Virus record (IMG/VR): IMGVR_UViG_3300008267_000128 | Span: 1-38,685 of that record | Strand: one strand, 5' to 3' | DNA from: a virus | Length of the DNA: 38,685 bases | Notes under the pieces: model-generated | Database searches by the model: none | The model's input: the letters and a program-made list of their open reading frames with translations, nothing else | Told to the model about the DNA's origin: nothing | In this document: in pieces, positions 3,079 through 38,184 of the stretch | Numbering within the stretch: the stretch's first letter is position 1 | How the letters are laid out: every line of letters starts with the position of its first letter | Position numbers and translations under genes: made by a program

Positions 3079-5129
3079 CTTCTTTCCCCTTGTAATCCGA
3101 CCGTATTACTTTCTTGTATTCCGGTCGGAATTTGATTTACACCTGTCAAAGCTTCGTTCAAAATACTCTGAGCCTTGACACTCATTAGTGGCACTTTAGC
3201 GAGCTTTTGTAAAACATCCAAGCCCTCAGGAGTAGTGACAAGTTCTGCAAACTTCCGATAGGTATCTGCAGTCACCATGGCTCTCACCCCTTTACCAGCT
3301 TGATTCCCTGCGTTCAAACTTAATAACTGCACCCCACTAGCGAAGCCAGACTTTCCTGCTAACTCCTTCACATCCTCTGGGCTCACGCCATAATTAGCAG
3401 GTCTTTTCGTTGCAGCCTCTATCAACTTCAATCCATTTAAAAACCCAGAATAGGCTGTCCCAGGTTCTTTTCCTTGCTGCTTTGCCATGCCCACAATTGC
3501 ATCCTTAATCCCTTGTTGCTGTGTAGGGGTAGCAAACAATTGCTTCTTAATCTCAGCCGCAATTTGCTCAGTAGGAATACCCTCTACGGAAGTTTCAACT
3601 TTGGCTAGAGCATTTGAGAAGTGTGTCTTAAAGGCGTTCTGCAAAATTTCGGGTGTGTCAGCTGTCTTCTCCGCAAAGTGCAAAATCTCGGAAGTTTTAC
3701 TACTTGGATTCCGCCCTTTTGCCAGCAAAGGAAGTAACTTATTTACCGCCTCAACATCTTCCTGCGCCCCCTGTCTTCCAGCAATTCTGCCAATCTCACT
3801 CTTCTTCAGGGGGTCAACCACTCTCCTAGAAATGTCAGCATATAACTCATTCCCTTGCCTAAAGGCGGAACTACCCGCCCCCAGCTCTTCCCGCACCTTC
3901 GTCATTGCCCCAGACAAAGCCCCAATAGCCTGTGCATCTGCTGGCTTCGATGCAGCATTCGGAATCTTTTTCGTAGCCATTAAGGAACGCATAGACTCAT
4001 TCAACTCTTGAGCTGAAACTGGTTTTGCTGCCCCTATGATAGATTTTCCAGCTGCATCTAGCAAACCAGTAGGTTCCCCTTTAGTCCGTGCAATAGCCTT
4101 TGTAAAGGTATCTTTCAATTCATTCAGCACGTCACCCCGCATTGAGTCTGGAGCTGCTTTCGCCTGTGCCCCAATCTCCGCTTCCATTCTTTGCAGGAAA
4201 GAAACTGGAACATCACCAGCCCTTTCATACAGTGGACGTACTTGATCCGACCTACTACTCTTTGCTGCTGCTAACACATTCGAAGCCGCTTGTTGCGACT
4301 CATTCGCAATCTGCGCTGGCTCTTTCACAGTCCCCTTCAGCGACTGCTCCAACCTCTTTGCAAGGTTCTGCACTTGCTCAGGTTGTTTTCCTAACTGCTC
4401 AATCAGCGGTGCCCCTTGCCGATGTCGCGTTAGTGCCTCCACAACCTTATCCATATTTGAAGGGAAGTTTGCTGCCTGACTGATATTCAAGTCAACTGGT
4501 GCGATTTGATTCTTCGCATTCATCATGTTGCTTCTAGTGGACGCCCATTGAGCTGGCGTCCAAGAACCTCCAGCCAAATTTGCCAGTTCTTTTATATTAC
4601 TTGCTTGTGCCAGAGGAATCGCTGGAACAGAGCCTCCCAGCAAAGCTCCTGTAACTCTTGCATAGGGTTCAATCGGCTTCCCCTCTGTTGCCTGCCCTGC
4701 TGCCTCTCCCCCCAGCCCACCCATCAAACCCGTAAGCCCAGCTCTAACAGGCCCAACAGCGCCCATTGGCGTTGTCAAAGCACTTGTAAGCCCTTTCACC
4801 CCTTCAGAAATATACTTCTCACTTGGAGTTTTCGGTTGATACCCAGAAGCTGCAATTGCCCTTGTAATTGGCATCGACTTGTCAAGTTTTCTTTCAGGTT
4901 GTCCAGAAGCGGCTAACACTGCATCAGCGAAATCTGGAGAACCAGAATACACATCCAATGCAGCCGGTATCGTAAACCCCAAAGCCCCTTTATAGGCTGC
5001 TGTTCCAATGTTTTTCAAACTATCAGGGACATATTCCCCAACTTTCTGCATGAAAGTTTGCTCTGTTTTGGCCTTCTCAAGCTCTTCCAGTCTTCGCAGG
5101 TCTAGTAACTCTTGCATTGTATTTGGCAT
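3075..5129 (-). CDS. Internal virion / DNA ejection-type protein (684 aa)
   Basis: A large Ala/Gln/Lys-rich helical protein with no enzymatic motif. Near residues 37-60 and 110-150 there are Gly/Ala-rich amphipathic or membrane-prone segments (GLTGLMGGLGGEAAGQATEG). These are features of podovirus proteins carried inside the head and ejected with DNA to form a conduit. It starts at an ATG with AGGAG four bases upstream and overlaps the preceding gene by one base (TAATG). Residues about 667-679 (IPTGIQESNTVGL) are encoded by copy 1 of the 38-bp element, so the element makes most of the C-terminus. Function is inferred from composition and position. Confidence 0.65.
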   Translation of the reverse strand: MPNTMQELLDLRRLEELEKAKTEQTFMQKVGEYVPDSLKNIGTAAYKGALGFTIPAALDVYSGSPDFADAVLAASGQPERKLDKSMPITRAIAASGYQPKTPSEKYISEGVKGLTSALTTPMGAVGPVRAGLTGLMGGLGGEAAGQATEGKPIEPYARVTGALLGGSVPAIPLAQASNIKELANLAGGSWTPAQWASTRSNMMNAKNQIAPVDLNISQAANFPSNMDKVVEALTRHRQGAPLIEQLGKQPEQVQNLAKRLEQSLKGTVKEPAQIANESQQAASNVLAAAKSSRSDQVRPLYERAGDVPVSFLQRMEAEIGAQAKAAPDSMRGDVLNELKDTFTKAIARTKGEPTGLLDAAGKSIIGAAKPVSAQELNESMRSLMATKKIPNAASKPADAQAIGALSGAMTKVREELGAGSSAFRQGNELYADISRRVVDPLKKSEIGRIAGRQGAQEDVEAVNKLLPLLAKGRNPSSKTSEILHFAEKTADTPEILQNAFKTHFSNALAKVETSVEGIPTEQIAAEIKKQLFATPTQQQGIKDAIVGMAKQQGKEPGTAYSGFLNGLKLIEAATKRPANYGVSPEDVKELAGKSGFASGVQLLSLNAGNQAGKGVRAMVTADTYRKFAELVTTPEGLDVLQKLAKVPLMSVKAQSILNEALTGVNQIPTGIQESNTVGLQGERR
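3094..3131. repeat. 38-bp bipartite element, copy 1
   Basis: Left arm AATCCGACCGTATTAC, spacer TTTCTT, right arm GTATTCCGGTCGGAAT. It encodes the C-terminal tail of the 684-residue virion protein and lies 16 bases before the next start codon on the minus strand. Confidence 0.9.
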
Positions 5130-7238: not shown

Positions 7239-8743
7239 CAAAAGAAGGTTGCTGCTAAACCAATACCAGCCCCAACTGTAGAGGCCTTGTTTGCATTTGC
7301 AGCATTCACTGTTGCAAGGTTCTGCCCATATTGAGTATTAACCCCACCTTGCAAATCAGCTGCCCCTACAGACCCCCCACCACCATAACCCTGGAAGTTC
7401 ATCTGCCCAACTTGATTTCCTGTGCGTAAAGCATTAGCTTCATTCAGACCCAAACTTCTCTGCATCAAGGCCTCTTGCACCGCGTTAGTTCGCAGATTAT
7501 TATTCGCAGCTGTCATTGCCTCAGCTTCCCCAAACTGCTGCCCCCGAACACCAGTGTTAAACCCAGCTCGTTGCATTTCTTGTGCATCCCTAAAGCCAGC
7601 TCTTTCCATTTCTGTGGCATTGGTAAATCCAGCTCTTTCCATTTCTGTGGCATTAGCAAAACCTGCCCCTGAAAGTGCATTTTGATAATCCTGTTGTTGC
7701 TGCCCCGCATTAAAAGTGGCACCTGCCAAGCTATTCCGAAAGGCATCTTGCGCATTCCTATTCTGCATTTCAGCTTTTGACATGCCTTGAGCAAAAGTCG
7801 TGTCCAGGTTTGCATTGTTAAACCCTGCAACACTGCCACGTTCCCCAAACTCTTGCCCTCTTGTAGCATTAGCAAAATTCGCCACATTCAAGTTCTGGGT
7901 TCCAATGCGAGTATCCTCAGCACCACCTGCCAGAATTGCGGAAGTTCTTGCCTCATCATAAGCAGCCGATTGTTGTCGTGCCTGATTATTTACAGCCCTG
8001 TCATAGGCTTCTGAACCTTCAGTAATACCTTGAGAAGCAAGTCGTGAAGTTAAGTCAGAAGTCTGTTGTTGTGTCTGAGGATCGAGCATAGCCGTTTGCC
8101 GCTGGTACAAGGCATCGGTAATTCTTTGGCGGGAGGCTTCTGAAGTTGGGTCAATATTTCCAAACCCCCGTAGACCTTCAGTGCTCAATTGCGCCCTATT
8201 AGTTGGAACTTCAGGCCCACCACTAAAATTGGCGGCACCACTGAAAGTGGTTCCAGGAGCTGCAGCGCCAACTTGCTGACCTGCTCCAACTTGTTGCCCT
8301 GCCCCAATTTGCTGTCCTGCCCCAACCGGTTGAAATGCCTGCATTCCCTCAGTTGTAAGAGCTTTTGCTTGTGGAATTCCTGAAAGGTCAAAGCGACTTC
8401 CTAAAGTTCCCGCAACATTCGTCAATGACGTTTTTGCCAGTTCCCCATATTGCCCACTTAAAGCATCCTGTTGATTCTGCAAAGCCTGTTGTGTTTCATT
8501 CAGTTTATTCGTGACAGTCCAATCCCCCGGTTGAGGGTTCTTCGGATCAGCACCTGGTCGCAGTGACCACGTTTGTGAACCACTAGGATCGATTTGGTTT
8601 GGTCGATTTAAGGCCGCTGTATCAGCTGCTGCAGTTTTATTCAACTCCGCTTGTTGTGTAGCAAGCTTAAAGGGATCTGGAGGCGCTGGAGCGTCTTTTT
8701 TCCGTAAGTTACCTGGATCTGCCAAAGTTTTAAACACGCCCAT
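7238..8743 (-). CDS. Internal virion/tail protein with tandem repeats (501 aa)
   Basis: Very rich in Ala, Gln, Asn and Gly, with no Cys-based or enzymatic motif. Two repeat tracts are visible: a six-residue unit of the type GAGQQV near residues 140-158, and an 11-residue unit of the type AGFTNATEMER around residues 360-395. The start has AAGGAAG four bases upstream and overlaps the acetyltransferase gene by 14 bases. Composition, size and position match internal core or tail proteins of podoviruses. The repeats may make a flexible or extended helical region. Exact role unknown. Confidence 0.6.
   Translation of the reverse strand: MGVFKTLADPGNLRKKDAPAPPDPFKLATQQAELNKTAAADTAALNRPNQIDPSGSQTWSLRPGADPKNPQPGDWTVTNKLNETQQALQNQQDALSGQYGELAKTSLTNVAGTLGSRFDLSGIPQAKALTTEGMQAFQPVGAGQQIGAGQQVGAGQQVGAAAPGTTFSGAANFSGGPEVPTNRAQLSTEGLRGFGNIDPTSEASRQRITDALYQRQTAMLDPQTQQQTSDLTSRLASQGITEGSEAYDRAVNNQARQQSAAYDEARTSAILAGGAEDTRIGTQNLNVANFANATRGQEFGERGSVAGFNNANLDTTFAQGMSKAEMQNRNAQDAFRNSLAGATFNAGQQQQDYQNALSGAGFANATEMERAGFTNATEMERAGFRDAQEMQRAGFNTGVRGQQFGEAEAMTAANNNLRTNAVQEALMQRSLGLNEANALRTGNQVGQMNFQGYGGGGSVGAADLQGGVNTQYGQNLATVNAANANKASTVGAGIGLAATFF
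7562..7661 (-). repeat. 33-bp tandem repeat within the 501-aa virion gene
   Basis: Two near-identical 33-bp units (7596-7628 and 7629-7661) and one diverged unit (7562-7595) encode an 11-residue repeat with core FTNATEMERAG. They are in frame, so unit number can vary without disrupting the gene. Confidence 0.8.
8268..8321 (-). repeat. 18-bp tandem repeat within the 501-aa virion gene
   Basis: Three imperfect 18-bp units (8268-8285, 8286-8303, 8304-8321) encode GAGQQV-type hexapeptides; a fourth partial unit follows. Confidence 0.75.
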
Positions 8744-9176
8744 AAGTCTTCCTTTTACGAGTAAGCCATTTGCACTCGTCTTTTGTCATACTGTAAATTA
8801 ATAAATCACCCAGAGGATGGGCATCTTTGAGGGTCGCCTCAAGTTTGAAACCTAGATGTTCATCTAAGCGTTGTGCTGCTGTGTTCGTTGAAGCCACAAA
8901 CCCAGTTATACGCTTACAGCGCAGTTGCTCGAATGGGTAGTAAAAAATGTACCACAGGAAGTCTCGTGTCATCCAGTGGGAACCTGGAACAGCTGCTATA
9001 TGAACATGAACATTTGCATGGTTAAAGTTATCATACATCGCAACTGCTTTTATTTCCCCAGCATCATCTGTAAGCCCAATTGTCTGCCCATCGGAGTCTC
9101 TCCAACAGCCTCCAACACCTTGCCTATCCAATAACCACTGCCCTAACCTTTGATTCTCATCAGTCACAATTCGCAT
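8730..9176 (-). CDS. GNAT-family N-acetyltransferase
   Basis: This 148-residue protein has the GNAT C-terminal half: a beta strand with CKRITGFVASTNTAAQRLDE (acetyl-CoA pyrophosphate-binding loop and helix), then HLGFKLEATL and a final beta strand. These are the motif A/B features of acyl-CoA N-acyltransferases. Such genes are common between the tail and internal protein genes of podoviruses, but their substrate (host protein, virion protein or small molecule) is not known. Its ATG directly abuts copy 2 of the 38-bp element, leaving no room for a normal ribosome site outside the element; GGGCGG in the element arm may serve. Confidence 0.85.
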   Translation of the reverse strand: MRIVTDENQRLGQWLLDRQGVGGCWRDSDGQTIGLTDDAGEIKAVAMYDNFNHANVHVHIAAVPGSHWMTRDFLWYIFYYPFEQLRCKRITGFVASTNTAAQRLDEHLGFKLEATLKDAHPLGDLLIYSMTKDECKWLTRKRKTYGRV

Positions 9177-9214
9177 AATCCGCCCGTATTACTCTGTTGT
9201 ATTCCGACCAGATT
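9177..9214. repeat. 38-bp bipartite element, copy 2
   Basis: Left arm AATCCGCCCGTATTAC, spacer TCTGTT, right arm GTATTCCGACCAGATT. On the minus strand it fills the entire gap between two genes: its right edge contributes to the TAA stop of the tail gene (9213-9215), and its left edge touches the ATG of the acetyltransferase (9176). Confidence 0.9.
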
Positions 9215-10763
9215 ATCCTAGCAAATTCCCAAGTCCTAATAAATAATCTGTAGCAAACCACTGAAAGGAAACATCCTTATCATTAATCTGCAGCAAAAGC
9301 GCAATACAATACCCTGGTTTTTGTGCTACTGTTCTCCACTGGTCGTCTGTAAAACTATCACCAACCCAATAAGACTGATCCCAAGTAGAAACGTCCCAAA
9401 GAGAAACTCCATTGGGGGTAGTAGAGGACTGAGAAATAACATCATAAACTTGAAAATTAGTGCTTAAAGCAAAACTGACGGAAAGTTTTTTCGACACATG
9501 GAAGTTTGGGCGTAGAAGTTTCACATGTTTCTGACGAATTCCATAACCAAAGTAGTTGAAAGCAGTTTTCACTTTCCCTACAATGTTATTTCCAAAATCA
9601 GACTGCCCTGTTAGTGCCTGCACAACAACAGCATTGCCCCCATAGTACAAATTCCCATTGAATTCAGCAAAACAGTTCGCAGGCATTCCAGTAAATTTAC
9701 TCCAAGCTCCTGTCAGGGTATTCATTACCATCTGAACCGTACCTGTTTGTGTACTATTAGGAATATTTAGGATCAGAACATCTTCTGGGGAATACCGCAA
9801 TAATTCCCAACCAAAAACCCCTTTAAAGGCCGTGGCTAAAGTGCTAATTTCCCCTCTGGTTTTATCCGAGAGGCTTGAGGTTCTGTCAATCGCTACTGAC
9901 TGAAGCAACTTAGAAACCGAAACAAGTCCCGATTCTGTAATAACAAGTAATTCCCCGCCTAAGCGGTAAAAACAATTCTTTCCAATTGGCTTTGGTAACT
10001 CGTAAACACCAACCATAGCCCAAGTTGCGGCATTGCTCGGATCAGTCCCCCTGTAAACAGCTAATTCCCCCTCGGAGGTAATAAATACCGCCAGATCATC
10101 AGAACCTGTACCATTATCAACTGTCCAACTGCCAATTGCCTGCAAAGCCCCACCTTTTGTGAAAAGTGCTCCGAGAGGGAATTCTGCAACTACCCCTTGC
10201 ACTGAATTCACAGGCAAATACCAAAAACTTAAAGTACCCTCTTCAGTGAAGAAGAGCCTGAAACTGTGCTGATGGATAGTATTCAGTAACTTTGAATCTG
10301 AAATTCCTGTAATGACTGAAGTTTGCCAGATTGTTCCATTATAGAACAGTGGGAGATCAACCCCATTCACCATCACAAGATAACGAATTCCAGCATTAGC
10401 TGAATTAACGCTAATCCACTTCCCATCAGTGCAAGCAATTTCAAGTGTAGCTACCCCTGCAACAGAGGTATTGTAAATTCCAAAAGAAGTTCCTGCAAAT
10501 AGTTTCCCCGAAGCCCCATTACGATAAGGGAGTAGAGACTCTACTTGAGCATTTGCAACTGGAATAGAACCATAACTCGCTTGTCCTGCCCTCAGTTCCA
10601 CCAAAACAGGTCTGCAAATAAAATTCTCAAGAATCAGTGCATCCTCTGGGCGCATTTTCGCCAAAGGGTCTCTGGAGTTCAACCCGCCAACAGGAGACTG
10701 CACCGTCTTTGGCACACTTAAAGCATTCGCCCTAGCATTCTTGCTGTTCAGTGGGCGTCTCAT
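9213..10763 (-). CDS. Tail hub/nozzle-like protein, probable beta-propeller (516 aa)
   Basis: The N-terminal segment PVGGLNSRDPLAKMRPEDAL followed by ILENFICRP is a motif of the podovirus tail-stabilising or nozzle family related to P22 gp10. The rest shows repeated blade-like beta motifs (GKLFAGTSFGIYNTSV, GELLVITESGLVSVS, NGNLYYGGNAVVVQAL). It would sit below the portal and adaptor and close the tail channel. The start chosen is the ATG at 10763, which overlaps the adaptor stop as ATGA; an in-phase TTG lies four codons upstream. Family assignment rests on motif and gene order. Confidence 0.75.
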   Translation of the reverse strand: MRRPLNSKNARANALSVPKTVQSPVGGLNSRDPLAKMRPEDALILENFICRPVLVELRAGQASYGSIPVANAQVESLLPYRNGASGKLFAGTSFGIYNTSVAGVATLEIACTDGKWISVNSANAGIRYLVMVNGVDLPLFYNGTIWQTSVITGISDSKLLNTIHQHSFRLFFTEEGTLSFWYLPVNSVQGVVAEFPLGALFTKGGALQAIGSWTVDNGTGSDDLAVFITSEGELAVYRGTDPSNAATWAMVGVYELPKPIGKNCFYRLGGELLVITESGLVSVSKLLQSVAIDRTSSLSDKTRGEISTLATAFKGVFGWELLRYSPEDVLILNIPNSTQTGTVQMVMNTLTGAWSKFTGMPANCFAEFNGNLYYGGNAVVVQALTGQSDFGNNIVGKVKTAFNYFGYGIRQKHVKLLRPNFHVSKKLSVSFALSTNFQVYDVISQSSTTPNGVSLWDVSTWDQSYWVGDSFTDDQWRTVAQKPGYCIALLLQINDKDVSFQWFATDYLLGLGNLLG

Positions 10764-11467
10764 CGGCCTGCCCAATTACCAAAAGGCACCACAACTCCAG
10801 GGGTCATACTCGTGCGAGAGGTGGCCATTGAGACCGCCTGTTTCGTCGCGGAACTAACAACCGCTTGCTTACACAAGTTTTCAAAAGTGCGGAAGTTCTC
10901 TGCATAGGCAAGCTCTTTCTCCGCTTTCCAACGCCAACGCAAATCTGCAAGGATAATGCTATCTGGAAGAATAGTAGTATCACTGTCCAATGTGAAGTAC
11001 TGCTTCGTGGAAAGATCCGCTGCGATTACTGCATTGTGACTCTTGTACTCAAAGCTGTAAGTAAGACTTGCTGGTCCAGCCGGAATGAACAGTAAATTTC
11101 CACCCACCTCACGAAACTGTACCAGAGCACTTGGAGTTCCCCAAATCCTTAGAGCCTGCGAATCCTGCGGACTGATTGAACCTGCTCCAATTAGTCTATT
11201 GGTATTGCTCCACAGCGTGTCCCCAATCAGTGAACGAAAACCTGGGGCTATCGTTGCCAATGCGCCTTGATTCTCTACTGAAGTTGAAACAAAAGTCGCC
11301 ACCTTTTCCAGTTGCGACCATGGCATTACTACCAGATTATCCAAACCTTCATTAATCAACGCTAACAGTTGAATCACCTGCGTATCAGTGCTACTGGACA
11401 CAGTCACAGGGACTGACAAACCAGTAGTCTTACAAAAAGTTTGAACAATCTGAAGTAATGTTTTCAT
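10760..11467 (-). CDS. Head-tail adaptor, gp4-like (235 aa)
   Basis: Begins with a helix (MKTLLQIVQTFCKTTGL), then ALINEGLDNLV, and later ADLRWRWKAEKELAYAENF. This pattern of terminal helices around a small beta domain with RIWG-type motif is typical of head-completion adaptors in P22/T7-like phages. The gene lies between capsid-region genes and the propeller-like tail protein, the expected adaptor position. It starts one base after the previous stop and overlaps the next gene by ATGA. No enzymatic residues are visible. Confidence 0.7.
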   Translation of the reverse strand: MKTLLQIVQTFCKTTGLSVPVTVSSSTDTQVIQLLALINEGLDNLVVMPWSQLEKVATFVSTSVENQGALATIAPGFRSLIGDTLWSNTNRLIGAGSISPQDSQALRIWGTPSALVQFREVGGNLLFIPAGPASLTYSFEYKSHNAVIAADLSTKQYFTLDSDTTILPDSIILADLRWRWKAEKELAYAENFRTFENLCKQAVVSSATKQAVSMATSRTSMTPGVVVPFGNWAGR

Positions 11468-12957: not shown

Positions 12958-12995
12958 AATCCGACCACTTTACCCTAGAGTAATACGATCGGATT
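12958..12995. repeat. 38-bp bipartite element, copy 3
   Basis: Left arm AATCCGACCACTTTAC, spacer CCTAGA, right arm GTAATACGATCGGATT. It occupies most of the gap between the major capsid gene and the decoration-like gene, upstream of the latter's ribosome site. Confidence 0.9.
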
Positions 12996-15410: not shown

Positions 15411-17691
15411 TTGGAGTCTCCTGAGGAGTCATAGAAGCTGACAAAGTCTTTTGCTGCGCCAGAGCCATCTGCTGTTTAAACTTCTCCCGACTCACCAATG
15501 CTTTTTCCTGCTCTAACTGCATCTTGTTAGTATGTTCTGTCTGTGCGAATTCCATTTCCATCTGAGTTTTCCTCATTTCAGTCTCTGCCTGTGCAATAGC
15601 AAGTTTCCCTTCCTGCTCCGCAATTTGGGCCTCTTGCTGCATCTTCGCCATTTCCGCTTGGATTTTAGCTTGCTCCGCCTTTGCTTTCAACTCAATATTT
15701 GGATCAGGCGGTGGTGGTGCTGGTGGTTGTTCTGTTTCCGGGGGTTTCGGTGCCTGCATCTTTTCCAAATGCTCCTCCACCTCAGGCCCCATAGCCATCT
15801 TCCGCACAATTCCTAGCATCATAGACTTCGCCACTTCAAATGGCATAGTGCCATCAGCAATCATAGGTGCTACACCATTCAGGAACTGGCTCAGAGCATT
15901 AAGAAGCTCACCAATATTCTTTTGATCCTCCGCCATGTCGTCAGCAATTGTAGAATTAGTCTCGATGTCGATTCTAAATTCCATCATGGCATCGCTGCGC
16001 ATCATTTCAACAATAGCCTCCCAGGTAGGGGTAGCGAGGGTGTCTACTAACTCTTGTGGTGGCGGTTGTGGTGGTGGTGGTTGCTGCCCTGACTGCTGCG
16101 CCATCATTGTTTGCTGCTGTTGTTGCTGTTGCATTTGCGTCATCTGCAATTGTGCCTGCTGCTTTTGCGCCTCCGTAGTGTAAGGCAAACCCGTCATCTG
16201 CATGAAAGTCTCTTGAGAGAACTTTTGTCCTGCGATTTCAGCAATGATGCGAAGATTCCCTTTACACCAAGAAGAGACGAGTTTCTGCATGCTTTTCAAG
16301 CGTAGAGTCCCCCATTGATTCTTGATATTTTGTGCTGTTGCTGACTCACTAGCCACACTCGAACCCCGAAGGATGTCACTGATGCCAGTGATTTCATAAA
16401 TCACCTGTTTGATCTGCCCCCGCTGGGTATAGAGTTGTTGCAACACACTTACCAACTCCCCAAGTGGCATTAAAAAGATGGAATCTTTTAGCGTCTTTCC
16501 ATCCCCAAGGGAGAGTATGTTCTCAACCGGCACAAGAACACAATCATCAGATTTTACAATCGTAGCAATCTCAGTTAACTGAGAGTCATAGGCCCCCCGA
16601 ACCTTCAAAGCACTCATTACTGCTGTAATCCGTCTCGTAATGAGGTTCAATTCTTCCGCTTGCTCACGATACAAATTATAGATTGGCTGAGGGATTTGCG
16701 ATGAGAGCTTCTGTAAAAAGCGTAAGGGCTCTTCACAAGGAAAGAAACCTGTCAAGCCTAAAGGATCTGGCACGCGCTTCAATTCCCGTTCCTTCAACCC
16801 AGGACTAATAAAAGTTACTGTTTTCGAAGTCTTATCCCAGAGTTCATAGACAATTGCAACTTTACGAGTGTCTTTCGCCTTCTGCTGTTCAATTCCGCTA
16901 TCCTCTTGCAACTCAGCAGTTGTAACTGCTTTACTGATTTCTTCTCCGAAGTTCTCTTCCAACTCTTCAGTCGTCATGTGGTGCTCAAATGTCACCCAAG
17001 GAACTTGTTTCCAGCGTTGCGCATACCCACACAAGAACCTATCATAAGCAACAACCTCACCACAAATGCGCTCATTCTGCACACTTGGGAGGTTTGGGGC
17101 ATTCCCGATCGTATTACTATCGAGTACTCCGACCGGATTATCTTCGTCAGAATCCTCAGGTTCAAGGTCATTCTGGAGTGTGCCCCCTTCTGCTGGGGTA
17201 TTCCGAATCTCCTCAGGAGTCTCTGCGGTCTCTGTCTCAACTTCTGTATAATCTGCTGAATACTTCCAACGAACCACACCTTGCCCAGGTACCAGTGCAC
17301 TCAGAATCGCTGTATCTACCAGAGCGTCGAAGTTCTCTTCTGCCCCGCTATTTGAATCCATGCAGAACACAAGCGTCCGATTCATTGTCAACGCAACTGC
17401 TCCTGCCAGCGGATCTTTATCCTTAAACCTCTTCCCTACGGCAGGTCGTGGTGTATTATTATATAAAGCAGGCGCCAGTGTATCTGTATTGCTATATAGG
17501 ATGTTAAACGGACTGGCTTCCCGACGATAGCCTTCATACAGGTCAACGATTTTACTAGCATCAATCCTCCATTCTTTTTCTTTTGATTTTCTGGAATTGA
17601 TTTCCTGGAGCCAAGCTGTAACTTGTACCTCCGACAATTGCCCCTTTGAGGTTGAAGGCTTCATCATAGCTTCTAATTGGTTATTTTTCAT
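15397..17691 (-). CDS. Portal protein (764 aa)
   Basis: The large size, position just after the large terminase, and segments such as RREASPFNILYSNTDTLAPA, LVPGQGVVRWKY and QVIYEITGISDILRG match podovirus P22-type portal proteins, which form the dodecameric DNA entry ring. The C-terminal third is a long Gln/Pro-rich and Ala/Glu helical region (QMQQQQQQQT near residue 530; EMAKMQQEAQIAEQEGKLAI later), like the P22 barrel extension. Residues about 185-197, in an acidic loop, are encoded by copy 4 of the 38-bp element (NPVGVLDSNTIG). The start overlaps the terminase stop by ATGA. Confidence 0.9.
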   Translation of the reverse strand: MKNNQLEAMMKPSTSKGQLSEVQVTAWLQEINSRKSKEKEWRIDASKIVDLYEGYRREASPFNILYSNTDTLAPALYNNTPRPAVGKRFKDKDPLAGAVALTMNRTLVFCMDSNSGAEENFDALVDTAILSALVPGQGVVRWKYSADYTEVETETAETPEEIRNTPAEGGTLQNDLEPEDSDEDNPVGVLDSNTIGNAPNLPSVQNERICGEVVAYDRFLCGYAQRWKQVPWVTFEHHMTTEELEENFGEEISKAVTTAELQEDSGIEQQKAKDTRKVAIVYELWDKTSKTVTFISPGLKERELKRVPDPLGLTGFFPCEEPLRFLQKLSSQIPQPIYNLYREQAEELNLITRRITAVMSALKVRGAYDSQLTEIATIVKSDDCVLVPVENILSLGDGKTLKDSIFLMPLGELVSVLQQLYTQRGQIKQVIYEITGISDILRGSSVASESATAQNIKNQWGTLRLKSMQKLVSSWCKGNLRIIAEIAGQKFSQETFMQMTGLPYTTEAQKQQAQLQMTQMQQQQQQQTMMAQQSGQQPPPPQPPPQELVDTLATPTWEAIVEMMRSDAMMEFRIDIETNSTIADDMAEDQKNIGELLNALSQFLNGVAPMIADGTMPFEVAKSMMLGIVRKMAMGPEVEEHLEKMQAPKPPETEQPPAPPPPDPNIELKAKAEQAKIQAEMAKMQQEAQIAEQEGKLAIAQAETEMRKTQMEMEFAQTEHTNKMQLEQEKALVSREKFKQQMALAQQKTLSASMTPQETPNANL
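17102..17139. repeat. 38-bp bipartite element, copy 4 (inside portal gene)
   Basis: Left arm TTCCCGATCGTATTAC, spacer TATCGA, right arm GTACTCCGACCGGATT. It is read in frame on the minus strand as part of a portal loop, in the same frame as copy 1. Confidence 0.9.
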
Positions 17692-19330: not shown

Positions 19331-19368
19331 ATTCCGACCGCGTTACTCTTGAGTACTCCGACCGGATT
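19331..19368. repeat. 38-bp bipartite element, copy 5
   Basis: Left arm ATTCCGACCGCGTTAC, spacer TCTTGA, right arm GTACTCCGACCGGATT. It lies about 190 bases upstream of the large terminase start. Confidence 0.9.
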
Positions 19369-19658: not shown

Positions 19659-19700
19659 TTGACAGAAGTGGAAAAAAACACTATAATAAGTCATGGACTT
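19659..19700 (+). promoter_or_regulatory. Sigma-70 promoter with palindromic operator, antisense to the terminase region
   Basis: TTGACA (19659-19664), 17-base spacer, TATAAT (19682-19687): a perfect consensus match. It is followed directly by AAGTCATGGACTT (19688-19700), a dyad overlapping the expected start site. The same arrangement occurs at 29006-29047. It points rightward, against the 158-aa and small terminase genes. Confidence 0.8.
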
Positions 19701-19741
19701 ACCCCCACCTCCCCCGCTCAATAGTGGTCGGATTATAATTA

Positions 19742-20218
19742 TTAATTACTGCTGCTGGAGTTGTTGTGCAGATCATGCGCCTGCTTGCTGGCAGAGCAGC
19801 ACACAGGGCAATCTGTGCAGTCCGTTGCAGTACCTTCAGCAGTAGTTGCAGCTGTAGCAGTACTAAGTTCACCGCGCTCACTTGACAACCCCAACACCCG
19901 CTCAGACGCCGCGAGGCTCCCAACCCCAAAACCTGGAAAATCAAGAGGAGGGTACGTCAACTCAGCCTCGTGTGGCCGGTGCATCTGCTCCAATGTGTTG
20001 CCTCTGCGACGATTGTGGGAAATTCCGACCGGAGTACACAGGAGTAATGAGTGCGGATTTGAAGAAATTGCCTCCGCAGTCACCTGTTGGGGAGTAGTTT
20101 GAGCCGATTGCCCACCTTGCAGTAGCCCCTCAGCCAGTCCAATCACCCTTCCCGTACTGTAACCATCCGCGTAATACTGCGCACACAGTGCTTTCAACTC
20201 TTCCTGCAGTTTACTCAC
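19742..20218 (-). CDS. Hypothetical protein (158 aa) between terminase subunits
   Basis: The N-terminal 38 residues look like a true protein (MSKLQEELKALCAQYYADGY, then a Gly/Leu helix), and the start overlaps the small terminase gene by eight bases. The remainder is low-complexity, with Cys-rich (TDCTDCPVCC) and Ser/Asn-rich ends; residues about 54-66 come from copy 6 of the 38-bp element. The opposite strand also has an open frame here with a CCLCDDCGKF motif, so the true coding strand of the distal half is uncertain. No function assigned. Confidence 0.5.
   Translation of the reverse strand: MSKLQEELKALCAQYYADGYSTGRVIGLAEGLLQGGQSAQTTPQQVTAEAISSNPHSLLLCTPVGISHNRRRGNTLEQMHRPHEAELTYPPLDFPGFGVGSLAASERVLGLSSERGELSTATAATTAEGTATDCTDCPVCCSASKQAHDLHNNSSSSN
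20022..20059. repeat. 38-bp bipartite element, copy 6 (diverged right arm)
   Basis: Left arm ATTCCGACCGGAGTAC, spacer ACAGGA, right arm GTAATGAGTGCGGATT. The left arm is intact, the right arm has lost the CGRYCG core. It lies inside the 158-aa gene. Confidence 0.75.
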
Positions 20219-21123: not shown

Positions 21124-21161
21124 AATCCGGGCGGAATACTCTGGAGTAATAGGGGCGGAAT
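21124..21161. repeat. 38-bp bipartite element, copy 7
   Basis: Left arm AATCCGGGCGGAATAC, spacer TCTGGA, right arm GTAATAGGGGCGGAAT. It lies about 90 bases upstream of the small terminase start. Confidence 0.85.
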
Positions 21162-21668: not shown

Positions 21669-21697
21669 TTGTAATCCGGTCGGAATTGGATTATAGT
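21669..21697 (+). promoter_or_regulatory. Early rightward promoter with half-element in its spacer
   Basis: TTGTAA (21669-21674), 17-base spacer, TATAGT (21692-21697). The -35 box and spacer contain GTAATCCGGTCGGAATT (21671-21687), a single arm of the 38-bp element with its CGGTCG core. It is well placed to drive the early plus-strand genes. Confidence 0.65.
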
Positions 21698-21822: not shown

Positions 21823-21848
21823 ATAGCCAATTCTCATCAGTTGGCTAT
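21823..21848 (+). other. 5'-leader hairpin before the first early gene
   Basis: ATAGCCAA (21823-21830), 10-base loop, TTGGCTAT (21841-21848): a perfect 8-bp stem. A second small hairpin, GAGCAA..TTGCTC, follows at 21851-21864. Both lie between the early promoter and the ribosome site of the gene at 21889. Confidence 0.6.
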
Positions 21849-21888
21849 GCGAGCAATTTTGCTCATCACACTTAAAAGAGGCTCTAAA

Positions 21889-22407
21889 ATGATCGCAACA
21901 TCTACACGTATCGCAGCTGTAACAACAGACGTATTCACAACTACGCTTACACTTAATTTTTCCAATGGGAAAGAGTTGGTAATTGATACTACAAAATTGT
22001 CACCGGAAATTCTGTTACAGGCCACAATGCATGGGCTCAAACAGAAATTAGTCGATGCTGCCGCAATTGGTCGGGATATGGTAACGGGCAAAACCGCAAC
22101 GATTGAGGATAAATTTAACGCCGTGCATGCCGTCTATACGCGTATCACGGCGGCTGATGGCACGTGGAATGCTAATCGCGAGGGGGTAGAGAAAACCCAA
22201 GGGGGAATGTTTGTCCGTGCAATGATGGAGTTGACGAAAAAGGATAAGGCTACAATCGACGCGCAAATTGCTACACTGAGCAAAGAACAGATTGCCGCAT
22301 TGAAGAAGAATCCACGCATTGTGGACATCATGCAGAGGTTAGAGCGTGAAAAGTTAGCCGCGAGCGATACAAGTGATGCATTGCTTGACTCATTGTTAAA
22401 CGGTTAA
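21889..22407 (+). CDS. Early phage protein (172 aa), paralogue of the 23468 gene
   Basis: A helical protein with a small N-terminal beta part (TTLTLNFSNGKELVIDTTKL), a central DGTWNANREG motif and a C-terminal region KNPRIVDIMQRLEREK. These match, in the same order, VRLDFVNGQTRTFYI, NGDWTAKRE and NNPKIAPIVAELEA in the protein at 23468-24073, so the two are paralogues. The C-terminus SDALLDSLLNG is also shared with two other early proteins. The frame extends upstream to 21841, but the ATG at 21889 follows the AAAAGAGGCTC ribosome site and is chosen. Function unknown; possibly a host- or replication-interacting early protein. Confidence 0.8.
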   Translation: MIATSTRIAAVTTDVFTTTLTLNFSNGKELVIDTTKLSPEILLQATMHGLKQKLVDAAAIGRDMVTGKTATIEDKFNAVHAVYTRITAADGTWNANREGVEKTQGGMFVRAMMELTKKDKATIDAQIATLSKEQIAALKKNPRIVDIMQRLEREKLAASDTSDALLDSLLNG

Positions 22408-22604: not shown

Positions 22605-22629
22605 AAGCCCGCTAACCATGCGGGTTTTT
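22605..22629 (+). terminator. Rho-independent terminator
   Basis: AAGCCCGC (22605-22612), 7-base loop, GCGGGTTT continuing into TTTTT. It lies after the 40-aa gene and immediately before copy 9 of the 38-bp element. Confidence 0.8.
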
Positions 22630-22631
22630 CA

Positions 22632-22669
22632 TTTCCGACCGGGATACTCGATTGTAATACGGTCGGATT
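22632..22669. repeat. 38-bp bipartite element, copy 9
   Basis: Left arm TTTCCGACCGGGATAC, spacer TCGATT, right arm GTAATACGGTCGGATT. It lies between a terminator and the secreted-protein gene. (The half-site at 21671-21687 is counted as number 8.). Confidence 0.9.
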
Positions 22670-23467: not shown

Positions 23468-24073
23468 ATGGCAACTGCACCGAAAAAAGAAGTCGAACTG
23501 AACATGGTAACAATGACAGATGGCCGTGTGGTCGAATTCGCAGGTAAGCGTAAACTGTTGAAGTGTTCCTTCACAGATGACAAAGGCGTTGGTGTTCGTT
23601 TGGATTTCGTAAATGGCCAGACACGTACGTTTTACATCCCTGAACCACTGTTGCACAAATTCGCGGCACACGGCGCCGAGCAGAAGTTAGGCGATGAAAC
23701 AGCTGGTGTGGAAGATCCAGATGACATGGTTATGGCAATTGATGACCTGATTGACCGCCTCTACAACGGCGATTGGACAGCAAAGCGTGAAGCCAGTGCG
23801 ATGGCAGGTGCGAGTATCCTGGCAAAAGCACTGTGCCAATCCAGCGGTAAGACATTGGATGCAGTACGCGCGTTCCTAGCTACGAAGTCACAAGCTGAGA
23901 AAGTCGCAATGCGCAACAATCCGAAGATCGCGCCGATCGTCGCCGAATTGGAAGCCATCAAGAACAAGAACAAGAAGCCAGCGAAAGAAGTTGACACTGA
24001 TTCCTTGTTGGATGCCTTGGCAAATGGTGACAATACCATCACATCTACTGGCCCTGTCGACACGGCAGAATAA
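23468..24073 (+). CDS. Early phage protein (201 aa), paralogue of the 21889 gene
   Basis: It has the same layout as the 172-aa protein: beta N-terminus with VRLDFVNG, HGAEQKL near residue 75, YNGDWTAKRE, then a helical region ending MRNNPKIAPIVAELEA, and a C-terminal SLLDALANG. The Lys-rich stretch KNKNKKPAKE precedes the tail. It has its own promoter and a terminator array, suggesting strong separate expression. The W-x-x-(K/N)RE and NP(K/R)I motifs recur in related phage proteins of unknown function. It may bind DNA or a host factor; not proven. Confidence 0.8.
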   Translation: MATAPKKEVELNMVTMTDGRVVEFAGKRKLLKCSFTDDKGVGVRLDFVNGQTRTFYIPEPLLHKFAAHGAEQKLGDETAGVEDPDDMVMAIDDLIDRLYNGDWTAKREASAMAGASILAKALCQSSGKTLDAVRAFLATKSQAEKVAMRNNPKIAPIVAELEAIKNKNKKPAKEVDTDSLLDALANGDNTITSTGPVDTAE

Positions 24074-25441: not shown

Positions 25442-25479
25442 AACCCGATCTGAATACTCCATAGTAATCTGGTCGGGAT
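25442..25479. repeat. 38-bp bipartite element, copy 10
   Basis: Left arm AACCCGATCTGAATAC, spacer TCCATA, right arm GTAATCTGGTCGGGAT. It ends 24 bases before the next ATG. Confidence 0.85.
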
Positions 25480-25503: not shown

Positions 25504-25698
25504 ATGGCTAAGCCTAAAAATGTAATCCCAACTGTAGAGAAGAAATTCTCTATCCCCTCAGACCTATGTGCTCGCCTAGAACTGGAGCTCTTCAGCGACT
25601 TAGAAGGGAAAATCCCTCACGGCGCGCAGTCAATCCTCGTAGCAAAGCTTTTGCGTGAACACTTCGAGGAACTCGATACCAACACTCAGCAGTTCTAA
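25504..25698 (+). CDS. Small protein, possible ribbon-helix-helix type (64 aa)
   Basis: A beta-like start (VEKKFSIPSDLCARLE) followed by two helices (LELELFSDLEGK and AQSILVAKLLREHFEEL) resembles ribbon-helix-helix DNA-binding proteins in which a short strand precedes two helices. It is preceded by copy 10 of the 38-bp element, whose end is 24 bases before the ATG. If it is a DNA-binding protein it is a candidate to bind the scattered elements. Function is inferred from shape only. Confidence 0.6.
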   Translation: MAKPKNVIPTVEKKFSIPSDLCARLELELFSDLEGKIPHGAQSILVAKLLREHFEELDTNTQQF

Positions 25699-28537: not shown

Positions 28538-28575
28538 ATCTCGACCGGAATACTCCATAGTAACACGGTCGGATA
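28538..28575. repeat. 38-bp bipartite element, copy 11
   Basis: Left arm ATCTCGACCGGAATAC, spacer TCCATA, right arm GTAACACGGTCGGATA. It ends 34 bases before the next ATG and shares its spacer with copy 10. Confidence 0.9.
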
Positions 28576-29005: not shown

Positions 29006-29047
29006 TTGACAATAGCCCAAAAGTATGATAGAATAAGTCATTGACTT
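29006..29047 (+). promoter_or_regulatory. Sigma-70 promoter with palindromic operator
   Basis: TTGACA (29006-29011), 17-base spacer, TAGAAT (29029-29034), then AAGTCATTGACTT (29035-29047), a 6-1-6 perfect dyad over the start site. It drives the following zinc-finger gene. The same -10, dyad and C-tract occur at 19682-19705. Confidence 0.85.
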
Positions 29048-29133
29048 ACCCCCCTCCTGCAGCGTGTCGTCGGCTGGATTAAATTGATTCCCAGTTGATG
29101 GCAGCTGCAGCAATCCCAGATGAAAGGTGCGCT

Positions 29134-29506: not shown

Positions 29507-29544
29507 AATTCGATCGTATTACAAATTAGTATTCCGGTCGAATT
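29507..29544. repeat. 38-bp bipartite element, copy 12
   Basis: Left arm AATTCGATCGTATTAC, spacer AAATTA, right arm GTATTCCGGTCGAATT. It ends 27 bases before the next ATG. Confidence 0.9.
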
Positions 29545-32298: not shown

Positions 32299-33236
32299 CA
32301 GAACTTACAATTGGGCAAAAAGTTATTATAACTGCCCTATCCGACTCCCAAGAGGAGGCAGAGCTTCTTATACAAAAGGCACAAGAATCCGCACTCCCAG
32401 GTGCCAACATCCTCATCATGGGGCCAGGGGGCACAGGCAAAACCCACTCCCTTGGAACCCTAGCTGAATCCGGAGTCGAGGTGTTCTACCTCGGACTCGA
32501 ACCTGGACTCGAATCCCTACTCGGCTACTTCACTGACAAAGGGAAAGAAGTACCCCCAAATGTTCACTGGCACATCGTTGACGCCCCAAAAGCCTCATTC
32601 ACCGACATGATCGACAGCGCGAACAAGATCAACACAATGGCACTCGATACCCTTGCCAAAATGACTGACCCAAAGCGCATGAACCACAACCAGTTTATTA
32701 AAATCTTGGAGGCACTGAATAACTATGTTGACCAACGAACAGGAAAATCCTTCGGCCCAGTCGATGAATGGAAGGAAGGAAGTGCGCTCTGCCTTGATTC
32801 TCTTACTGGACTCGGTCGTGCGGCAATGTCCCTTGTTGTTGGGGGAAAGCCTGTCAGAAATATCTCTGACTGGGGGATTGCACAAGACCAAGTTGAAAAG
32901 ATCCTTCGAATGCTTACAGATAATTGCCGCTGCTGGTTCATCCTCATCGCGCACGTCGAACGTGAAACTGATCAAGTCCTTGGTGGAATTAAACTCATGG
33001 TGGCAACTCTGGGAGCGAAACTTGCACCTAAGCTCGCACCAATGTTCTCTGATGTTATCCTCTGCGTCAGAGAAGGTAGTAAATTCTCTTGGAATACAGG
33101 GAGTGCGAGTGCAGATGTCAAGACAAGAAATCTGCCAATTAGTGAGGGATTGGCTCCTTCGTTCGCGGCTATTGTCACAAAGTGGAAGTCTCGGGGCGGA
33201 GTCCTAACCCCCAATCCCGACCGTATTACAAAATAG
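32295..33236 (+). CDS. RecA-fold ATPase, Sak4-like recombinase (313 aa)
   Basis: Walker A GPGGTGKT (residues 43-50) after a short N-terminal region, a Walker B-like SALCLDSLTGLG, and WFILIAHVERE. These are typical of the phage AAA_24/Sak4 family of single-strand annealing or recombination ATPases. The PD-(D/E)XK nuclease upstream and a DUF669-like protein downstream form its usual neighbourhood. The last residues (PNPDRITK) and the TAG stop are supplied by copy 13 of the 38-bp element. Confidence 0.85.
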   Translation: MTELTIGQKVIITALSDSQEEAELLIQKAQESALPGANILIMGPGGTGKTHSLGTLAESGVEVFYLGLEPGLESLLGYFTDKGKEVPPNVHWHIVDAPKASFTDMIDSANKINTMALDTLAKMTDPKRMNHNQFIKILEALNNYVDQRTGKSFGPVDEWKEGSALCLDSLTGLGRAAMSLVVGGKPVRNISDWGIAQDQVEKILRMLTDNCRCWFILIAHVERETDQVLGGIKLMVATLGAKLAPKLAPMFSDVILCVREGSKFSWNTGSASADVKTRNLPISEGLAPSFAAIVTKWKSRGGVLTPNPDRITK

Positions 33237-33251
33237 TATTCCGACCGCATT
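33214..33251. repeat. 38-bp bipartite element, copy 13
   Basis: Left arm ATCCCGACCGTATTAC, spacer AAAATA, right arm GTATTCCGACCGCATT. It provides the stop codon of the Sak4-like gene and lies 16 bases upstream of a -35 box. Confidence 0.9.
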
Positions 33252-34007: not shown

Positions 34008-35396
34008 ATGCAGCAACTCATTCTCCTAACAGACATCACAATTCCCGCTGACCGCCAACGTAAAGAATTCGATGCTGATTTCATTGCGGAACTCTCCGAA
34101 GGGATCAATCGGCAAGGCCTTCTCCATGCGCCAGTAGTGCGTGAAACGGAAATCGCCCCAGGTGTATTTGGCTTATCCCTAGTAGCAGGGGAAACTCGCC
34201 TCAAGGCAATCGAAATGCTCTGGATGACAGGGGGCACTCTGCGATACAACAACGTTGACATTGCTGATGGTTTCGTCCCTTACGTCACTCTCGGGCAGCT
34301 CACCCCTCTCGAAGCAGAGGAAGCTGAACTCGAAGAAAACATGAAGCGGAAAGACCTTACATGGCAGGAATCAGCTTCTGCAATGCAACGCCTTCACTCC
34401 CTACGTCAGAAGCAAGCCATTGCACAAGGACGTATCCACACAGTAGCTGACACCGCACTCGAAACGAAAGGACGCTCAGATGGCTCATTTCAAAACAACG
34501 TTCGCAAGGAACTCATTGTCGCTGCCCACCTCCATAACCCAGAAGTGGCTAAAGCAAAGAATACTGAAGAGGCGTTTAAAATCCTCAAGCGGCAGGAAAC
34601 AACGCAGCAAAACATTGCGTTGGCTGCGACTGTTGGACTTACGTACAATTCATCAGTACATACAGCCCTCAATGTCAACTGCCTGTCGTGGATGGCGGAG
34701 CAGATCGGTTTGCAGTTTGACGTTATCCTTACAGACCCGCCGTATGGAATGGGAGCACAGGATTTTGGAGATGGCGGAGGTAAGCAGTCTAATTCCGAAC
34801 ATCACTACGATGACTCTATTGAAGCCTGGCGCGAACTCATGGCCCATTGGTGCCAAGAAGCCTACCGCCTCGCAAAGCCCCAAGCCCACGCCTACGTTTT
34901 CTGCGACCAAGCCAACTTCCTGGAACTCAAAACCATGATGCAGTCCGCTGGTTGGTACGTCTTCCGCACCATGCTTATCGCCCACAAGCCAAACTCAGGC
35001 CGAGTCCCTCTCCCAACAATGGGGCCACGTCGCTGCTATGAAACAATCCTCTATGCGATCAAAGGAAACAAAACTGTCAACACCATCGCCCCTGATGTCA
35101 TCTCAACAACAGCTGACTCTAATCTCACACATGGCGCGCAGAAACCTGTTGCCCTCTACGTCGATTTGCTCAAGCGCTCAACTCGCGCCGGAGATTCAGT
35201 ACTTGACTGTTTTAGCGGTTCTGGCACTATCTTCCCCGCTTGCCAAGAACTCAAGCTCAAGGCTACCGGATTAGAACTTAACCCTGAATACTTCTCAATG
35301 GGATACAAACGCCTCAAAGACTTGGAAAATGCACCTGCACCTCTCGATGGCGATGCCCTTGGCGCGGAAGTCATCAACATGTTCAAAAAGGCATAA
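34008..35396 (+). CDS. ParB-like nuclease/CTPase domain fused to DNA adenine methyltransferase
   Basis: Residues about 1-170 are ParB/Srx-like: ITIPADRQRKEFDADFIAEL, INRQGLLHAPVV, the LVAGETRLKAIEML motif (GERR-box analogue) and ELEENMKRKDLTW. The second half is a beta-class amino-methyltransferase: DPPY (D243-Y246) first, then FSGSG (from F402) near the end, the order of beta-class N6-adenine or N4-cytosine enzymes. Such fusions modify phage DNA against host restriction and may bind specific sites through the ParB part. It has its own promoter, and the leader GAAAGCCTATATGC is shared with the 29572 gene. The methylated sequence is unknown. Confidence 0.92.
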   Translation: MQQLILLTDITIPADRQRKEFDADFIAELSEGINRQGLLHAPVVRETEIAPGVFGLSLVAGETRLKAIEMLWMTGGTLRYNNVDIADGFVPYVTLGQLTPLEAEEAELEENMKRKDLTWQESASAMQRLHSLRQKQAIAQGRIHTVADTALETKGRSDGSFQNNVRKELIVAAHLHNPEVAKAKNTEEAFKILKRQETTQQNIALAATVGLTYNSSVHTALNVNCLSWMAEQIGLQFDVILTDPPYGMGAQDFGDGGGKQSNSEHHYDDSIEAWRELMAHWCQEAYRLAKPQAHAYVFCDQANFLELKTMMQSAGWYVFRTMLIAHKPNSGRVPLPTMGPRRCYETILYAIKGNKTVNTIAPDVISTTADSNLTHGAQKPVALYVDLLKRSTRAGDSVLDCFSGSGTIFPACQELKLKATGLELNPEYFSMGYKRLKDLENAPAPLDGDALGAEVINMFKKA

Positions 35397-35814: not shown

Positions 35815-38184
35815 ATGAGTTTGTACTCGATCGGCCCAGAGCATGCGAAGGTAATGATTGTTGGGGAGTTTCCAGGTGAAGGTGACATCATCAAGAATCG
35901 TCCATTCTCAAGCGCATCAGGGTATGAGCTTAAAAAAATGCTATCCGAAGCCAACCTATTTTTCGAAAGTTGCTATGTTACGTATGCCTACCCTGACAGA
36001 TTACCTTCAGGCATTGACAGCCTCATTGCCAAAAACAAGTCCTCGATCACGCCGCAGCACATACCATTTCAAGGGAAGTACATCACACCAGTATTTTACG
36101 AGTATATCTTACAGCTACAACGTGAAATCGAGCTGGTGCGGCCGAACTGTATCGTGGCAATGGGTAACTTGGCGTTATTGGCACTCTGCGGTCAGTGGGG
36201 TGTCAACTCCTGGCGCTCCTCAATTATGGAATCCACCCTATGCCCTGGGGTTAAAGTCATCCCTACAATATCCCCGAATCAAGTTTACGCTCAGTGGAAA
36301 TGGCGCCCCCTCATTGTTCACGACCTCAAGCGTGTTCGGAAGGAAATGCAGTTCCGTGAGATAATCCGACCAGAATACAACTTTGTAATACGACCGGATT
36401 TTGAAACCGCACGGTACACACTGCAGCAACTCGCGGATCAAGCCCAGCTCAACAGTGGAAAGTTCCGCCTTGCCTGCGACATTGAAACCCGTGCAGGTCA
36501 CACTTCTTGCATAGGCTTCGCATGGTCTAACCTCGATGCAATCTGCATCCCACTTATGTGCCTAGAACGACCTGAAGGCTATTGGCCACTGGAAGAAGAG
36601 TCCGAACTCATCTACCTCATCCAGTTAATCTTCCAGCACGCTCTCATAGTTGGTCAGAACTTCAACTACGACGGCCAGTACATCTACCGCCACTGGCACT
36701 TCATCGCCCGTTACCCTGTGCGCGACACCATGCTCAAACAGCATTCCTGTTTCTCAAACATGGACAAGAATCTCGCCTTCCTCTCTTCTATGTATTGTGA
36801 AGATCACCTTTACTGGAAGGATGATCGTACCTTATGGCAAAAAGGTGATGATGGTGAAGGCGAAGATTCCTACTGGATCTACAACTGCACAGATTGCGTA
36901 CGCACCTTCAAAATAGACAGCGTCCTAGACAACGTCATCGAATCCCTCGGTATGCAATCTGTCGCTGCTTTCCAGCAAGCCCTAGCCCTTCCAGTTCTCC
37001 ACACCATGAACCGTGGCATCCGAGTAGACAACGAAGCCCGCGCTGCCTTTGCCCTAGAACTCATGGAAGGGGTCTCCCAGCGTGAAGCCTACCTCTATGA
37101 CCTCCTCGGCCATGAAGTCAACATTAAATCCCCTAAACAAATGCAGGAACTTTTCTACAATGAATTCAACCAACCAGTCATCCTTGGAAAAAAGACCCAA
37201 TCCCCTACAACTGACGATGAAGCTCTCCATCGAATTGCACAGCGAGAGCCCATCCTTAAGCCCATTACCCAATGCATTTCCGAGCTCCGCTCTTTGGGAG
37301 TATTCCACTCAACGTTTGTATCAGCTCCACTCGATACGGACGGACGCATCAGAACTTCTTTCAATATTGCGGGTACGGATACATACCGCTTTGCCTCATC
37401 TAAAAACGCCTTTGGCACAGGTCTTAACTGCCAAAATATTCCCAATGGCGGCGATACTGAAGATGCTGGGCTTACCCTCCCGAACGTGCGAAAACTTTTC
37501 ATTCCAGATGAAGGTAACACTTTCTTCGACATTGACCTTGACTCTGCAGATCTCCGCATCGTAGCATATGAATCAGATTGTAAGTGGCTCAAAGAGCAGT
37601 TAAACCTCGGAAGGAAACCTTATGTTGAAGTTGCGAAAGAATACTACCACGACCCCAGTATTACCAAGAACCATAAATCGTACCCTGTTTTTAAGGCGCT
37701 CTGTCACGGCACGCATTACCTTGGCACTCCTTCTGGCCTTGCCCCGCGTATTGGTCTACTGGTTCACGAAGTGGAACGTATCCAAAAATGGTACTATGGT
37801 CTCTGCCCAGAGATCAAGGTCTGGCAGGATCGCATCAAGAAGGAAGTGGAGGGGCGCAGGTATATCACGAACGTCCTCGGCTATCGACGATACTTCTTCG
37901 ACAAAATTGAAGGGACAGTCTTCAATCAAGCAGTTGCATGGATACCGCAATCTACCGTTGCCTGCGTCATCAATCGAGGATACGTCAATATCTTTAATAA
38001 CCTGAAAGAAGCTGAAATCCTTCTTCAAGTTCACGACTCCTTAGCTGGTCAATACCCATCCCACCTCGGCTGGGTAAAAGACCGCATCATTGAGGAATCC
38101 CGTATCACCCTCCCCTACAGTGATCCCCTCGTCATTCCTGTAGGAATCAAAACTTCTACCCGTAGTTGGGGTGATTGCAAGTGA
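35815..38184 (+). CDS. Family A DNA polymerase with N-terminal uracil-DNA-glycosylase-like domain
   Basis: A 789-residue fusion. Residues about 1-180 are UDG superfamily (family 4/5 style): GEFPGEGDIIKNRPFSSASG near residue 18, then CIVAMGNLALLAL. The usual HP-A motif is PTISPNQVY, so its histidine is absent. The 3'-5' exonuclease has DIET (D222, E224), NFNYD (N282, D286) and YNCTD (Y356, D360). The polymerase has motif A DLDSADLR (D574), motif B K627...Y635-x-G637 and motif C VHDS (H740, D741). Copy 14 of the 38-bp element encodes the linker between UDG-like and exonuclease domains (IIRPEYNFVIRPD). It replicates the phage genome. Confidence 0.95.
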   Translation: MSLYSIGPEHAKVMIVGEFPGEGDIIKNRPFSSASGYELKKMLSEANLFFESCYVTYAYPDRLPSGIDSLIAKNKSSITPQHIPFQGKYITPVFYEYILQLQREIELVRPNCIVAMGNLALLALCGQWGVNSWRSSIMESTLCPGVKVIPTISPNQVYAQWKWRPLIVHDLKRVRKEMQFREIIRPEYNFVIRPDFETARYTLQQLADQAQLNSGKFRLACDIETRAGHTSCIGFAWSNLDAICIPLMCLERPEGYWPLEEESELIYLIQLIFQHALIVGQNFNYDGQYIYRHWHFIARYPVRDTMLKQHSCFSNMDKNLAFLSSMYCEDHLYWKDDRTLWQKGDDGEGEDSYWIYNCTDCVRTFKIDSVLDNVIESLGMQSVAAFQQALALPVLHTMNRGIRVDNEARAAFALELMEGVSQREAYLYDLLGHEVNIKSPKQMQELFYNEFNQPVILGKKTQSPTTDDEALHRIAQREPILKPITQCISELRSLGVFHSTFVSAPLDTDGRIRTSFNIAGTDTYRFASSKNAFGTGLNCQNIPNGGDTEDAGLTLPNVRKLFIPDEGNTFFDIDLDSADLRIVAYESDCKWLKEQLNLGRKPYVEVAKEYYHDPSITKNHKSYPVFKALCHGTHYLGTPSGLAPRIGLLVHEVERIQKWYYGLCPEIKVWQDRIKKEVEGRRYITNVLGYRRYFFDKIEGTVFNQAVAWIPQSTVACVINRGYVNIFNNLKEAEILLQVHDSLAGQYPSHLGWVKDRIIEESRITLPYSDPLVIPVGIKTSTRSWGDCK
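36363..36400. repeat. 38-bp bipartite element, copy 14 (inside polymerase gene)
   Basis: Left arm AATCCGACCAGAATAC, spacer AACTTT, right arm GTAATACGACCGGATT. It is read in frame at residues about 183-196 of the polymerase fusion, between two domains. Confidence 0.9.

Follow-up and report, generated by a model that had tools for sequence, protein, structure and literature searches.

The window, by which we mean the whole 38,685-bp virus record analyzed here, has a 114-bp direct terminal repeat and contains 13 copies of a 38-bp element with a 16-6-16 layout, distributed among genes that include those for the capsid, portal, terS and terL, a helicase, a Sak4-like protein, and polA (Table 1). 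The copies had been listed in an original prediction, and every coordinate proved correct when checked against the window sequence; all 13 copies have TAC before and GTA after the central N6, and the CGRYCG cores lie 24 bp apart from center to center, as claimed. When each of the 13 copies was left out of the matrix in turn, the held-out copies scored 38.5 to 47.7 bits, whereas 30 first-order Markov simulations of the window reached 9.6 bits at most. Nothing else in the rest of the window scored above 0.4 bits with this matrix. A half-copy reported alongside the full copies is also real, being a single arm and the top-scoring half-site outside the full copies in the window. The symmetric core reaches one base more on each side, with A/T at both flanks, giving 40 bp in all. 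The proposal that the element is directional and has two types of arm did not hold: there is no consistent direction, and the supposed arm types represent variation at the degenerate positions of a degenerate palindrome.

Table 1. Copies of the element and other features of the window
Feature	Position	Strand	Context
Copy 1	3094..3131		3' end of gene 3075-5129(-); slot kept in 9/15 genomes
Copy 2	9177..9214		Occupies gap between genes 8730-9176 and 9213-10775
Copy 3	12958..12995		Directly downstream of capsid gene; slot kept in 25/28 genomes
Copy 4	17102..17139		Within portal gene
Copy 5	19331..19368		Upstream of likely terL start
Promoter with shared block	19659..19706	+	48-bp block, first occurrence
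Copy 6	20022..20059		Between terS and terL
Copy 7	21124..21161		Upstream of terS; slot filled in 25/36 genomes
Single half-site	21671..21687		In -35/-10 spacer of promoter-like TTGTAA-N17-TATAGT
p2	21841..22407		Related to p1
Copy 8	22632..22669		5 bp past terminator-like hairpin (22605-22627)
p1	23468..24073		Related to p2
Copy 9	25442..25479		25 bp upstream of candidate binder gene
Candidate binder, 64-aa ribbon-helix-helix-like protein	25504..25698	+	Predicted DNA-contact residues E12, K14, S16
Copy 10	28538..28575		Intergenic
Promoter with shared block	29006..29053	+	48-bp block, second occurrence
Copy 11	29507..29544		Intergenic
Copy 12	33214..33251		Sak4-like gene 3' end; 16 bp before promoter-like site at 33268
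ParB_N-methyltransferase	34008..35396		ParB_N domain fused to DNA methylase
Copy 13	36363..36400		Within polA (codons ~183-196); 22/35 genomes have a copy at this codon position (~190)

The likely terL start near copy 5 is placed by homology, which begins at about codon 100 of the open reading frame. Copy 13 encodes the linker IIRPEYNFVIRPDF ahead of the exonuclease-polymerase part of polA, and the N-terminal region before this linker is one that we take, from reading its sequence, to be uracil-DNA-glycosylase-like; the site may be older than a gene fusion.

The original prediction had read the element as double-stranded DNA bound by a protein rather than as an RNA stem, and this was supported by an arm-permutation test in which arms were re-paired among the sites within one genome. 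Across 23 genomes, the two arms of one site had 2,479 complementary positions compared with 2,562 expected (z = -3.5). We therefore read the element as duplex DNA, as the arms of one site fit each other no better than do arms from different sites. RNA hairpins at gene ends, serving as processing or termination signals, would find some support in the many copies after capsid genes that resemble good stems; however, many copies are poorly paired, same-site arms show no excess pairing, and terminator scans found no T-run enrichment at the sites, in agreement with the earlier statement that no terminator T-run is present. RNA hairpins and intrinsic terminators were rejected on the basis of the arm permutation and the terminator scans, and the residual likelihood that we assign to such a signal is minimal. 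Each arm has a dyad of its own at about position 7.5, which was the highest or near-highest center in most of 26 genomes. Since the arms are self-symmetric, the element is best read from its sequence as two half-sites for two dimers with centers 24 bp apart, a layout that accounts for both arms reading CGACCG on one strand in some copies.

Relatives were collected with an exact pattern search and with homology searches using the capsid protein and DNA polymerase I, which yielded about 165 related loci. An iterated symmetric matrix identified 293 elements in 96 of the related loci, compared with 0 matches in reversed, non-complemented DNA, a result at odds with hits at chance frequency. The element was present at corresponding gene borders of related phages, and the absence that would have counted against it did not occur. 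A free symmetric search was also performed de novo on 37 whole or near-whole genomes and later extended to more distant relatives; order-3 Markov shuffles served as the null for this search because a palindromic motif is again palindromic when reversed, which makes reversed DNA an unsuitable control. A first set of seemingly element-less relatives was mostly an artifact of motif drift, since the free search revealed that most had another core. Across the family there are 5 to 14 copies per genome. The core is uniform inside one genome and different from genome to genome (for example, TTTCACACCCGYATTAT-TATATA in G015, TTTTTCACCGGGATTAC in G018, and AATCCGRYCGGATTAC in the window); the 16-6-16 layout nevertheless persists between genomes, and the inner TA steps usually do too. 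No earlier description of the element was found in the literature searched, and a search for direct DNA similarity to one element in named phages gave chance matches only. No Phage_integrase or Resolvase match was found in the window or other family records (35 genomes). A prophage or host link was sought in four metagenome-assembled genome (MAG) contigs with capsid relatives, two of which are about whole-phage length, and the stretches examined contained no element. The genomes G013 to G020 share with the window its replication genes, elements, and candidate binder, and they have no detectable relatives of the window's capsid, terL, or tail module. As they share the replication half only, the element system appears to travel with that half.

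The candidate binder gene lies directly before the helicase gene (Table 1), and the protein, of about 64 residues, was found in 43 of 49 records. No convincing element was found in the cultured or distant controls, namely the Bradyrhizobium phage ppBjS10J-1, the Microcystis phage Mel-JY34, G043, G046, and G050, all of which are without a strong homolog of this protein; the best motifs in genomes such as G050, G037, G043, Mel-JY34, and ppBjS10J-1 were poorly palindromic coding repeats and were scored as no element. There are exceptions in both directions: G044 has an element-like repeat and no detected homolog, and G034 has a homolog and no detected element. G052 has elements, and its record is a fragment that does not include the early region.

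Covariation between site and protein points to this candidate. The distance between motif cores correlated with identity at residues 12, 14, and 16 when core proteins were controlled for (r = 0.33, p = 0.0016, n = 25) and likewise in 34 non-redundant genomes (r = 0.33, p = 0.0002), in a test that is not fully independent because these positions were first spotted in a subset of the same genomes. The ranking among all windows of the protein is a fairer measure than the p value, and 12/14/16 ranks best of 53 i,i+2,i+4 windows; 18 of 18,424 residue triplets are as good. The neighboring residues 13, 15, and 17 also carry signal (r = 0.28), so it is the whole strand that stands out and not three residues alone, and the helical part of the protein showed no covariation with the motif (r = 0.04). 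That the site sequence changes between phages together with the predicted DNA-reading residues suggests a genome-wide repressor or organizer, and we consider it probable that the candidate protein binds the element.

Its membership in the ribbon-helix-helix fold is plausible. Profile alignment places E12, K14, and S16 on Q9, N11, and R13, the residues with which Arc contacts DNA. Pfam RHH_1 matched 1 of 35 members of the candidate family (E = 0.04), with 0 of 22 phages passing the cutoff, and hhalign against six known ribbon-helix-helix sequences gave E = 0.013 at a low probability of 3%. The AlphaFold2 monomer (pLDDT 84) has an extended N terminus and the helices expected of the fold, at residues 19 to 29 and 41 to 63, and a Foldseek search with this model returned no PDB match; judging from the model, the N terminus would become a strand only in the dimer.

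Two other phage-encoded sources of binding were weighed, together with a host factor. The ParB_N-methyltransferase, in which a ParB_N domain (E = 3.5e-5, narrowly missing the Pfam cutoff) is fused to a DNA methylase, might load at the elements, as at parS, and spread or methylate from there. It is present in 36 of 37 genomes, its ParB_N domain presumably carries CTPase-like motifs, and the elements resemble parS or the KorB operators of plasmid RK2, which are palindromic sites dispersed over a small replicon. However, KorB and ParB are larger CTPase/HTH proteins, and the sequence distances of the ParB-like protein do not follow the motif after correction for relatedness (p = 0.10 and p = 0.20). 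In the absence of covariation beyond relatedness, which is an indirect test, this protein was rejected as the binder, and we now consider it a very unlikely one. A binder of another kind, such as a conserved phage protein like the paralogous p1 or p2 or a factor of the host, is improbable, if less so. The p1 protein is present in 37 of 37 genomes and retains a modest correlation with the motif after relatedness is accounted for (r = 0.19, p = 0.01), but this is weaker than the three-residue signal of the candidate, and the AlphaFold2 model of p1/p2 had no significant structural match. A host factor would not explain a phage-specific core that tracks a phage protein. The p1 and p2 proteins are themselves related, sharing the conserved motif HGxxQKLxD, and are predicted to form a five-strand N-terminal barrel together with helices, a combination without a known match.

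The elements occupy recurring slots. An element lies 20 to 64 bp downstream of the capsid gene in 25 of 28 genomes, just before terS in 25 of 36, after p1 in 15 of 35, and after the helicase gene in 13 of 32, and within polA it falls at codons ~188 to 196, between the N-terminal domain and the exonuclease-polymerase part, in 22 of 35. Intergenic sites number 234 of 291, compared with 69 expected. Spacing is evener than random in nearly all genomes, with a coefficient of variation (CV) of ~0.5 compared with 0.85 to 0.9; for the window P = 0.0175, and the per-genome P values are not to be multiplied since related genomes are not independent. Half-sites without a partner were found at promoter-like sequence in 6 of 22 cases, compared with 7.5% of AT-matched positions (p = 0.0045), and in the relative L021, as in the window, a half-site lies upstream of the p2 gene, between the -35 and -10 boxes. 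Full sites overlap promoter-like sequence in 24% of cases at 9/12 or better, a figure that is not used as evidence because intergenic position and the sequence of the element itself both confound it.

The element, its conservation, double-stranded nature, spacing, and positions, and its covariation with the candidate are established here by computation. We hypothesize, with close to even confidence, that they reflect a phage repressor that has a promoter operator and dispersed roadblock sites and whose binder is the candidate protein. Each 38-bp element would be a double operator of two roughly palindromic 16-bp half-sites, each bound by one dimer of the ribbon-helix-helix-like protein. Strand residues 12, 14, and 16 would enter the major groove and there recognize the variable GC core, and a basic N-terminal arm (M-x-R/K-P-K/R) may, more speculatively, contact the conserved A/T flanks. 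A lone half-site within an early promoter would serve as a conventional operator, and the evenly spread double sites, mostly in gene gaps, would be roadblocks that stop or attenuate transcription genome-wide. As protein and sites drifted jointly, each lineage would acquire a specificity of its own. If the protein does bind, the chances that its main effect is on transcription are even or slightly better.

The same binder might instead have an architectural function, with dimers at evenly spaced sites bridging the phage DNA or compacting it, whether for packaging, segregation, or replication foci. We regard this as rather unlikely, although several observations suit it. Sites are retained inside long genes where no gap is available (portal and polA at codon ~190), and these sites and the even spacing fit architecture as well as they fit a roadblock; the spacing, however, may partly result from the conserved slots. 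The absence of integrases from 35 genomes also suits it, as there is then no obvious need for lysogenic silencing. MatP, which has a ribbon-helix-helix domain, acts at sites dispersed over a domain of the replicon (PMC12756933), there being 23 matS sites in the 800-kb Ter domain of Escherichia coli (PMC3330122). The likeness lies in dispersed sites combined with a ribbon-helix-helix(-like) protein; matS, in contrast, is a 13-bp single site in a host chromosome domain rather than a 38-bp double site in a phage, and MatP has additional helical-bundle and coiled-coil domains, whereas the 64-residue candidate has no extra domain for bridging. We know of no drift in matS like that of the phage element. 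The promoter half-sites point to transcription, and these half-sites together with the gene-end positions place the transcriptional roadblock slightly ahead of the architectural role. The specific proposal that a minimal ribbon-helix-helix protein bridges the double sites as a phage chromosome organizer, co-diversifying with its site, seems rather doubtful; if it were true, each phage would organize or silence its own kind only.

The candidate also resembles the Arc/Mnt-type repressors of phage P22 in being a small phage protein whose strand residues align with those of Arc. Arc binds one operator as two dimers and acts at a single operator of ~21 bp, not at a genome-wide set; the inter-helix loop is longer in the candidate than in Arc, and the family-level sequence match is not significant. 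The L5-type stoperators suggested in the original prediction are the closest functional match to the element system. Genome-wide dispersed operators are well described in the L5-like temperate mycobacteriophages: in L5/Cluster A phages many stoperators lie in short intergenic gaps across the whole genome in addition to a promoter operator, with both motif and repressor having diverged among related phages (PMC9283540, PMC6550527). The phages studied here are similar in the number of dispersed sites (13 in the window and 5 to 14 in relatives) and in combining sites in gene gaps with an operator-type half-site in an early promoter-like spacer (window and L021). However, the L5 sites are 13 bp, asymmetric, and oriented with transcription, whereas those here are symmetric 38-bp double sites with dyad-symmetric arms; the L5 binder is a monomeric repressor with HTH and stoperator domains, whereas here a small ribbon-helix-helix-like protein would bind as dimers; and the L5 phages are temperate, whereas these phages have no integrases.

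The system described here is palindromic, independent of the L5-like one, and found in a large environmental family that lacks integrases. The question that follows is what use a lytic phage has for 5 to 14 evenly spaced putative protein-bound sites. Beyond the element as originally predicted, the analysis adds self-symmetric half-sites, positions conserved across the family, the evolution of the site, and a candidate binder identified through covariation. Dozens of naturally diverged protein-site pairs provide a data set on how the specificity of a protein and that of its many targets change jointly, and all key steps can be tested with a single small protein and a single DNA of 38 bp. A separate feature of the window is a pair of promoters that share a 48-bp block, 75% identical (Table 1). 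In this block, TTGACA-N17-TATAAT/TAGAAT precedes AAGTCATNGACTTACCCCC, and a small dyad that covers the likely start site is possibly a second type of operator.
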